NCBI GenBank assembly: GCA_020344335.1
Contig: CP070821.1
Location: forward strand, 498,200-540,107
From: Gammaproteobacteria bacterium
GTDB taxonomy: Bacteria > Pseudomonadota > Gammaproteobacteria > UBA9214
Reading direction: 5' to 3'
Length of the DNA stretch: 41,908 nucleotides
Shown here in pieces: positions 23,898 to 26,816 of this stretch. The notes beneath the pieces were generated by a model. It was given only the letters and a program-made list of their open reading frames with translations. It searched no databases and was not told the DNA's origin. Every line of letters starts with the position of its first letter. Within the stretch, counting starts at the first letter, position 1. Position numbers and translations under genes: made by a program.

Positions 23898-24467
23898 ATG
23901 GTCAGTCTGGAAACACCGGTATGCGATTTTGGCAAGCCCGCCATTGATTTCGCACTTCCCGGAGTCGACGGGAACGTCTGGACACTGGAATCGTGCCGGG
24001 GGCCGAATGGCTTGCTGGTAATGTTTATCTGCAATCATTGCCCTTACGTGAAGGCTATTCGCGAGCGGCTGGTGCGCGATACCCGTGAATTGCTCGATCT
24101 CGGCGTCCATAGCGTGGCCATCATGTCCAACGACCAGACCTTGTACGAGGAAGACAGCTTCGAGAACATGCAGGCCGTGGCGCGGGAATTTGATTTCCCG
24201 TTTCCCTACCTGCTGGATGAATCCCAGGCGGTTGCTAAGGCCTATGGTGCGGTGTGCACCCCGGATTTCTTCGGCTATAACAGTAGCTTGGAGTTGCAGT
24301 ACCGGGGTCAGCTGGATGCCAGCCGCATGGAAACCGCGCCACCCGATACGCGGCGAGACCTGTTCCTTGCCATGCGTCAGGTCGGGGCGAGCGGACAGGG
24401 GCCGGCGGAGCAGACGCCGGGCATGGGTTGCTCCATCAAGTGGCGTGAAGAAGTCGGCGCAGACTAA
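23898..24467 (+). CDS. Thioredoxin-fold redoxin family protein
   Basis: A 189-aa AhpC/TSA-type redoxin of the group annotated 'thioredoxin family protein'. The redox centre is C45-N-H-C48 in FICNHCPYV, after a conserved DFALPGVDG strand. A cis-proline-type segment (AVCTPDFFGYN) follows, and the C-terminal MGCSIKW is typical of this subfamily. No signal peptide is seen, so it should be cytoplasmic. Substrate and partner are unknown. An AGGAGG at 23887-23892 is five bases before the ATG at 23898; the ATG at 23895 is too close. It is divergent from metK and stands alone before the leader of the tkt operon. Confidence 0.88.
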   Translation: MVSLETPVCDFGKPAIDFALPGVDGNVWTLESCRGPNGLLVMFICNHCPYVKAIRERLVRDTRELLDLGVHSVAIMSNDQTLYEEDSFENMQAVAREFDFPFPYLLDESQAVAKAYGAVCTPDFFGYNSSLELQYRGQLDASRMETAPPDTRRDLFLAMRQVGASGQGPAEQTPGMGCSIKWREEVGAD

Positions 24468-24477
24468 AATATAAGCT

Positions 24478-24520
24478 ATCTATAAATATTTGTTATATAG
24501 ACATAATATCGTTTATAGAT
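24478..24520 (+). repeat. AT-rich 9-bp perfect inverted repeat around a promoter
   Basis: ATCTATAAA (24478-24486) and TTTATAGAT (24512-24520) are exact reverse complements separated by 25 bases. The right arm overlaps the proposed -10 element, so it may be an operator bound by a dimeric regulator. No known consensus was recognised. Confidence 0.5.
24490..24519 (+). promoter_or_regulatory. Promoter candidate for the leader/small RNA before tkt
   Basis: TTGTTA (24490-24495) and TATAGA (24514-24519) are spaced by 18 bases, a fair sigma-70 match. They would start transcription at about 24526. The surrounding region is unusually AT-rich for this window. Confidence 0.5.
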
Positions 24521-24525
24521 CGCAA

Positions 24526-24700
24526 GATGTCGGATACCCCGACTATTGCCGAACGGCACAAACTAGGAGAGAATAGCGCGCTTCGCGATTCCGGGGTCAA
24601 GCACCCGGATGGCAACGGGAGTGGACTCCCCGCACAATCTGAAAAATTTCGATGTGGACAATCGCCTCGGTGCACTGATCGGCACCCGGGGCTTTTTTTT
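24526..24700 (+). ncRNA. Candidate structured leader (attenuator/riboswitch) or small RNA
   Basis: This 175-base stretch has no ORF of note, is rich in pairing segments and ends in a strong intrinsic terminator. Visible hairpins: GTCGG/CCGAC (24529-24543), CGCG-CTT-CGCG (24577-24587), CGGGG/CCCCG (24592-24596 with 24628-24632) enclosing CCCG/CGGG (24604-24607 with 24616-24619), or alternatively GGGAG-TGGA-CTCCC (24617-24630). GCACCCGG occurs twice, at 24601-24608 and in the terminator's right arm at 24682-24689. The terminator's left arm could therefore pair with either copy, a terminator/antiterminator choice. It lies 118 bases before tkt. Six GGA triplets raise the alternative of a CsrA-binding RNA. 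I match it to no known riboswitch class. Confidence 0.55.
24664..24700 (+). terminator. Intrinsic terminator upstream of tkt
   Basis: GCCTCGGTGC (24664-24673) pairs with GCACCCGGGGC (24682-24692) around an eight-base loop, with one bulged C and one G-T pair. It is followed by eight T (24693-24700). This is the strongest plus-strand terminator in the window apart from the one after fba. Confidence 0.85.
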
Positions 24701-24818
24701 CCACCGCGCCAGCGCTGCCGGGAAGCCGGGACGCGGCGGACACTGGAACAGATGCCCGACTTCACTCGCGGTACTGGCGACCAGATATAAAGTATCCAAA
24801 TCTGTACAGGAGGAAATC

Positions 24819-26816
24819 ATGGCCCAGCGCAAAGAACTCGCCAATGCAATACGTGCGCTCAGTATGGACGCAGTGCAAAAGGCGAAATCCGGCCATCCCG
24901 GTGCCCCGATGGGTATGGCGGATATTGCCGAAGTCTTGTGGAACGATTACCTGAAACATAACCCGGCAAACCCGGGCTGGGTGGATCGTGACCGGTTTGT
25001 ACTGTCCAACGGGCACGGCTCCATGCTGATTTACTCCCTGCTGCACCTCACCGGTTACGACCTGGGTATCGAGGACCTCAAGCAGTTCCGCCAGTTGCAT
25101 TCCAAAACCCCGGGGCATCCCGAATACGGGTACGCTCCGGGCGTTGAAACCACGACCGGTCCGCTCGGGCAGGGCATTACCAATGCGGTCGGCATGGCCG
25201 CAGCAGAAAAGACGCTGGCCGCACAGTTCAACCGTGACGGTCATAATATCGTCGATCACCACACCTATGTCTTCCTGGGTGACGGTTGCCTGATGGAAGG
25301 AATTTCCCACGAGGCCTGTTCGCTTGCCGGCACCATGAAGCTGGGCAAGCTGATAGCATTCTGGGATGACAACGGGATTTCCATTGACGGACACGTAACC
25401 GGCTGGTTTACCGATGACACGCCGAAGCGTTTCGAGTCCTACCAGTGGCATGTGGTGCGCGATGTCGACGGCCATGACCCGGATGCCATCCGCAAGGCGA
25501 TCGAAGAGGCCCGCGCTGAAACTGACAAGCCCAGCCTGATTTGTTGCAAAACTGTGATCGGTTTCGGTGCCCCCAATCTTGCCGGCACACATGACTGTCA
25601 CGGTGCCCCGCTGGGAGAGGATGAAGTTGCCGCGACCCGTGAAAACATTGGCTGGTCGCATGCACCCTTCGAGGTACCGGATGCGGTGTATGCCAGCTGG
25701 GATGCAAAAGACAAGGGTGTGGAGGCAGAAGCCGAGTGGGATACCCTTTTCACTGCCTACAAGGAAGCGCATCCGGATCTGGCGGCCGAGTTTCAGCGTC
25801 GTATGGCCGGTGAACTGCCGGTGGACTGGAATTCGAAGGCGGCCGAGTTCATTGCCTCTGTCGATGGCAAGGCCGAGACCATTGCATCCCGCAAGGCCTC
25901 GCAGAATGCACTCAACGGCTTTGGTCCGCAGTTGCCGGAGATGCTGGGCGGCTCAGCCGACCTGGCCGGTTCCAATCTGACAATATGGTCGGGATCCGAA
26001 GACATCAACAAGGGTAACGGCGGTAACTATATCTACTATGGTGTGCGCGAATTCGGTATGTCCGCCATCATGAACGGCATTGCCCTGCATGGCGGCTTCA
26101 TTCCCTACGGTGCGACCTTCCTGATGTTTTCGGAATATGCGCGCAATGCCCTGCGCATGGCGGCCCTGATGAAGGTGCACAGCATTTTCGTATATACCCA
26201 TGACTCGATCGGGCTGGGTGAGGACGGCCCGACCCACCAGGCGGTGGAACAAACGGCGACCCTGCGCATGATCCCGCGCATGTCGGTCTGGCGCCCCTGT
26301 GATGCGGTCGAATCTGCCGTGGCCTGGAAGGCCGCTATCGATAATAGCACGGGCCCGAGCTGCCTGATTTTCTCGCGCCAGAACCTGCCGCACCAGGAAC
26401 GCAGCGGCGACCAGATTGCGGCGATTGGTCGTGGCGGCTATATCCTGCGCGACTGTGACGGTACCCCGGATGCCATCATCATCGGGACCGGCTCCGAAGT
26501 CAGTCTGGCAATGGAAGCGGCAGAAACGCTGACTGCCAGGGGCACGCAGGTCCGCGTCGTGTCCATGCCGTCAACCGATGTGTTCGATTCGCAGGACGAG
26601 GCTTATCGTGAGTCGGTGCTGCCGTCCGCCGTTACTGCACGCGTTGCGGTCGAGGCCGGCGTGACGGATTACTGGCTCAAGTATGTCGGTCTCGGCGGCA
26701 AGGTCATCGGTGTCGACTCCTTCGGTGAATCCGCACCTGCCGGTGATGTCTACAAGCACTTTGGTGTCACGTCGGGAAATGTCACGAAAGCGGTCGAAGA
26801 CGTGCTCCAGGCCTGA
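24819..26816 (+). CDS. tkt: Transketolase
   Basis: A 665-aa thiamine-diphosphate enzyme exchanging two-carbon units in the pentose phosphate and Calvin cycles. Near the start is [20 protein letters not shown]. The ThDP-binding [13 protein letters not shown] block is at about 154, the pyrimidine-domain segment with [14 protein letters not shown] lies in the middle, and [19 protein letters not shown] is at the C-terminus. Length is normal. I chose the ATG at 24819 because AGGAGG (24808-24813) lies five bases before it; the frame is open upstream but that part only covers the leader. It opens the tkt-gap-pgk-pyk-fba run. Confidence 0.97.

Follow-up and report, generated by a model that had tools for sequence, protein, structure and literature searches.

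A conserved promoter and a clade-specific candidate premature terminator in the 5′ leader of a gammaproteobacterial tkt operon

Introduction

The RNAs CsrB and RsmZ are short, terminator-ended, CsrA-binding small RNAs that carry GGA triplets. Intrinsic terminators are also found ahead of genes, and premature terminators in 5′ untranslated regions (UTRs) have been catalogued as candidate attenuators, the rimP-leader being one example (Naville and Gautheret, 2010; PMC2965389). A leader RNA released by attenuation can itself act as a small RNA, as described in Sinorhizobium for RZ, a product of a SAM-II riboswitch (PMC9373788).

Here, we analyzed the region upstream of the transketolase gene tkt in an uncultured gammaproteobacterium. 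The window is a 41,908-nt stretch of contig CP070821.1 (assembly GCA_020344335.1). In it, tkt (24819–26816, forward strand), assigned by Pfam matches, heads the run tkt-gap-pgk-pyk-fba, whose products are transketolase, GAPDH, PGK, pyruvate kinase, and class II fructose-bisphosphate aldolase. The upstream neighbor of the leader is an AhpC/TSA-like gene that ends at 24467 on the same strand. An initial annotation of the interval 24526–24700 had proposed a candidate attenuator or riboswitch that controls this run. On the sequence comparisons reported below, the region is best read as a promoter together with the 5′ leader that precedes this run.

Results

The leader was recovered across the host family by DNA search, in every case flanked by the AhpC-like gene and tkt, and 20 tkt leaders from several genera (g1, g4, and g5 among their labels) formed the comparison set. 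A class-wide DNA search with one leader sequence as the query returned only family matches and noise. A match in Chloroflexi (L048) was attributed to chance, as it had neither an adjoining tkt nor a terminator-like sequence. The set compared contained 23 genomes, all of one family, from the uncultured gammaproteobacterial order of the host. RuBisCO is present in the host genome, and the alpha-carboxysome genes CsoS2 and CsoSCA adjoin it (genome positions 794000–806000; L228); therefore, this is probably an autotrophic lineage with carboxysomes.

The best-conserved part of the noted interval is 24543–24581. The strongest block within the leader, CTATTGCCG-N8-AAACTAGGGGAAAATAGCGCGC, is constant in length in the 20 family leaders, and the leader behind the promoter block ranges from 114 to 139 nt in the same set. 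This conserved block is a predicted tkt promoter (24546–24574, forward strand), a DNA element and not an RNA aptamer, consisting of the −35 hexamer TTGCCG (24546–24551), a 17-nt spacer, and the −10 hexamer GAGAAT (24569–24574). The fixed spacing of the two hexamers upstream of the gene falls within the 16–18 nt expected of a sigma-70 promoter. Each hexamer has four of the six consensus positions, and the site is absent from the output of a default promoter scan.

The same element was identified as TATTGCC-N11-AGTAGGGGAGAATA in the tkt upstream regions of other families of the class. The pattern TTG[CT][CT]-N15-20-GANAAT occurred in 50 of 89 such regions compared with 4 of 89 on the reverse strand, and the spacing was identical in 44 of the 50 matches. 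A pattern search of 143 genomes gave 18 matches, 15 of which fell no more than 400 bases upstream of tkt. The class logo shows a −35 of TTGCC, a −10 of GANAAT, and a spacer in which one T hardly varies and one G is strongly conserved, followed downstream of the −10 by a GC-rich discriminator and by C/T-rich positions at 7–9 nt. In the window, the discriminator and the predicted transcription start occupy 24575–24583 on the forward strand. Based on these promoter features, including the C/T-rich positions 7–9 nt past the −10, the RNA should start near 24581. The initial annotation had placed the RNA start near 24526, which has to be revised because the promoter lies within the noted interval. 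Taken together, the class-wide tkt promoter is, in our best reading, a more solid find than the leader terminator described below.

The G at the first −10 position and the invariant T and G of the spacer are unusual, which suggests an additional regulator. Written as TTGCC-N18-GANAAT (24546–24582; L091–L169), the tkt promoter occurs in many families of the class and is close to single-copy in each genome. The idea of a regulon was rejected, since the block is single-copy in each family genome and good matches across the class are nearly confined to tkt upstream regions. A general promoter class was likewise sought in the host genome with the wider pattern TTGNC-N17-19-NANAATNGCGC, which matched the tkt site only. 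An aptamer reading of the 36-nt block was also considered, in which a putative CUAUU/AAUAG helix has a near-invariant left side and fixed spacing. The helix showed no covariation and was broken without compensation on the right side in L009, L030, and L038 and on the left side in L021. This reading was dropped because the same block recurs as a promoter in other families.

Upstream of the promoter, an AT-rich block (ATAA-N5-TGTTAT-N6-ATAA; 24482–24506, forward strand) was identified as a candidate activator-binding site. Its TGTTAT core lies 53–57 nt 5′ of the −35 in 17 of the 20 family leaders, and the intervening sequence is variable. The block possibly represents an activator site, resembling the LysR type by eye. 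A link to CbbR was pursued by searching for the block near the RuBisCO and carboxysome genes of the host genome, where it was not found.

The terminator described in the initial annotation was confirmed. It lies at 24664–24700 (forward strand) and is composed of a 10-bp stem, GCCTCGGTGC (24664–24673) pairing with GCACC-C-GGGGC (24682–24692) with the C at 24687 bulged, and a T8 run (24693–24700), 118 bases before the tkt ATG at 24819. The hairpin z score was −3.6 in the window and averaged −3.0 over the 20 leaders, well outside what chance would give. The terminator was kept in 19 of the 20 family leaders, 73–90 nt past the promoter block, and is absent or degenerate in L026, which comes from another genus of the family. 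Terminator positions were paired in 98.2% of cells compared with 35–48% in slid controls, and two pairs had changed on both sides. This GC-rich hairpin followed by a T run and conserved through compensatory changes has the features of an intrinsic terminator. Conserved in relatives and separating the promoter from the first gene, it corresponds to an attenuator in the wide sense. The label of candidate attenuator stands because the comparison supports a premature terminator that is conserved within the 5′ UTR of tkt. Directly behind the T run, 24701–24710 is conserved in most of the family even though it lies beyond the stop point, and the bases found there in relatives are GTCGCTGA or GCCACTGA.

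With a cutoff of −10 kcal/mol, a hairpin with a T run was detected in 9 of 50 leaders of other families and in 3 of 50 reverse-strand controls; thus, the terminator is not a class feature. The predicted terminator is specific to the family. By eye, L118 may carry a related one.

The initial annotation had further proposed that the left arm of the terminator pairs alternatively with an upstream copy of the right-arm sequence, giving mutually exclusive antiterminator and terminator forms. Both copies of GCACCCGG (24601–24608 and 24682–24689) were found as described, and an 8-base match between the right arm and the upstream region arises in 2.6% of shuffles, which speaks for a metabolite riboswitch or protein switch in which 24601–24608 pairs exclusively with 24664–24673. 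Nevertheless, the duplex itself was ordinary, at −14.5 kcal/mol in the window compared with −14.0 ± 2.2 kcal/mol in shuffled sequences (p = 0.38), and it was at shuffle strength in nearly all relatives. The antiterminator pairs were kept in 78% of cells, largely by G-U and inner pairs; of 18 sequences, 11 broke one outer pair and 8 the other, and covariation was at the shuffle level. The nested hairpin thought to mask the upstream copy was kept in 47% of cells, similar to slid controls. No conserved, structured aptamer was found upstream of the expression platform, and no conserved pairing was mutually exclusive with the terminator, which alone is structurally conserved across genera. A riboswitch or protein switch of this kind is very improbable.

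The leader had also been called highly foldable, whereas its z score was −1.58 and 13 of 200 shuffles folded as well. Without the terminator, the leader body folds like shuffles (z = −0.71 in the window; mean z = −0.75 over the leaders). RNAalifold predicted the terminator as the sole structure when all genera were included; within two subgroups, weak hairpins that differed between the subgroups were added. No Rfam family was matched, even at E values up to 5.

The leader body (24581–24663, forward strand) is variable between genera. In g5, its identity was 92%, compared with 76% in the stretch behind the terminator, 61% in that 5′ of the −35, and 80% in the third codon positions of tkt. The corresponding values were 80, 72, 45, and 75% in g1 and 59, 43, 38, and 60% across g1–g5. 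In g4, the identity was 42% in the body compared with 37% after the terminator. The leader body is probably functional because, in g5 and g1, the two closest genera, its conservation exceeds that of its flanks. It looks selected in these two genera, and its sequence turns over between genera. Neither an open reading frame (ORF) common across genera nor an enrichment of GGA was found that would account for the conservation of the body.

Attenuation by a leader peptide was considered for the same region. An ATG at 24609 in the window is open and in frame with tkt, and weak ATG ORFs occur in g5 leaders; however, no Shine-Dalgarno-bearing ORF is common across genera, and the lengths of the leader and of the terminator loop vary by non-multiples of three. 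With no conserved short ORF with a ribosome-binding site among the leaders, a peptide-based mechanism is extremely improbable. The ATG at 24609 opens a 735-aa ORF that runs in frame across the terminator into tkt (24609–24819), and this ORF is probably due to chance because it is not kept in relatives.

The suggestion that the leader is a CsrA-binding small RNA was not supported. The leader in the window has four GGA triplets compared with 2.5 expected, and L026, L030, L038, and L074 have none. Several GGA triplets in hairpin loops at a frequency above expectation, as would mark a CsrA-binding small RNA, were not found among the leaders.

An A/T-rich stretch and the Shine-Dalgarno sequence of tkt (24777–24817, forward strand) are conserved in the family. 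The stretch reads AAAGTATCCAAATC in the window and takes the form ACAGAATTC or AAAGTATTC in relatives, just 5′ of the ribosome-binding site. Related words are enriched in tkt leaders of the class (ACAGAAT, 5 compared with 0.2 expected; CAGAATT, 6 compared with 0.7). We take 24777–24810 to resemble RNase E sites and regard it as a candidate only. In the family comparison, no second conserved promoter was visible between the terminator and tkt.

These observations bear on a further possibility, namely, that the main product of the locus is a trans-acting, leader-derived small RNA with a poly-U terminator of the Hfq-bound kind, tkt being expressed via read-through and processing near its ribosome-binding site or from an unseen promoter. 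The strong conserved terminator, the selection on the leader body in g5 and g1, and the RNase E-like stretch 5′ of tkt are consistent with such an RNA. On the other hand, no seed-like stretch is conserved across genera, Rfam gave no match, and the element was never found outside the tkt 5′ UTR. We consider a trans-acting main product unlikely. A further alternative is that the terminator is an unregulated element, either a fixed brake or a stop for transcripts from the upstream AhpC/TSA-like gene. A body that has no conserved structure and a terminator that has no conserved switching partner speak for this alternative. Selection on the leader body in close relatives speaks against it, and the terminator is located downstream of the tkt promoter and must therefore act on tkt transcripts as well. 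An unregulated terminator is accordingly rated as quite doubtful.

Discussion

The tkt 5′ UTR is best read as carrying a premature terminator that is specific to the clade and would act as an attenuator, as the 3′ terminus of a small RNA derived from the leader, or as both. Comparison among relatives supports the predicted promoter, the predicted terminator, and the order of the two, as well as selection acting on the leader in g5 and g1. RNA polymerase would start near 24581 at the class-wide promoter TTGCCG-N17-GAGAAT, probably assisted by a protein at the AT-rich block, and would reach the family-specific terminator about 120 nt on. Part of the transcripts would stop at 24700, releasing a leader RNA of about 120 nt, and the remainder would read through into tkt. 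Judged from sequence, this course of a start near 24581, a partial stop, and read-through is reasonably probable, and many transcripts probably end before reaching the genes. Located between the promoter and tkt, the terminator would therefore set, and may regulate, the output of the operon. We infer that termination takes place in vivo, that read-through is the source of tkt mRNA, and that read-through may be regulated. Counting against the attenuator reading are the lack of a conserved antiterminator or sensor, the absent or degenerate terminator of L026, and the imperfect consensus match of the hexamers, which the default promoter scan passed over.

A more far-reaching proposal is that the premature terminator is regulated by protein- or RNA-controlled antitermination and that the class-wide tkt promoter is read by a putative regulator via its unusual −10 and spacer bases, which would make the locus a new clade-specific regulatory leader RNA of a Calvin-cycle/glycolysis operon. 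This proposal is tentative and, in our judgment, somewhat unlikely.

The comparison corrects a misreading, as the best-conserved block 5′ of the terminator is a predicted promoter rather than an RNA aptamer. Neither a bacterial tkt leader nor this tkt promoter, whose conservation extends over much of the class, was described in the open-access literature searched. For the genes that the Calvin cycle and glycolysis share in an uncultured lineage bearing RuBisCO and carboxysomes, the leader offers a control point that can be tested.

Compared with CsrB and RsmZ, the tkt leader RNA is likewise predicted to be short and terminator-ended with some GGA triplets, but these are not enriched, and the leader has no Rfam match. 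It shares with RZ a short leader transcript and an intrinsic terminator ahead of a metabolic gene, whereas it has no aptamer and a function in trans is only putative (PMC9373788). In layout, it resembles the catalogued attenuators, whose main-text description does not mention tkt (Naville and Gautheret, 2010; PMC2965389). The tkt leader differs from these in having no conserved antiterminator and in being limited to one family. As described in that catalog, premature leader terminators are a known kind of element, and the tkt leader agrees with them in that a conserved intrinsic terminator separates the promoter from the gene start, an arrangement that in many of the catalogued cases likewise comes without a recognized sensor.
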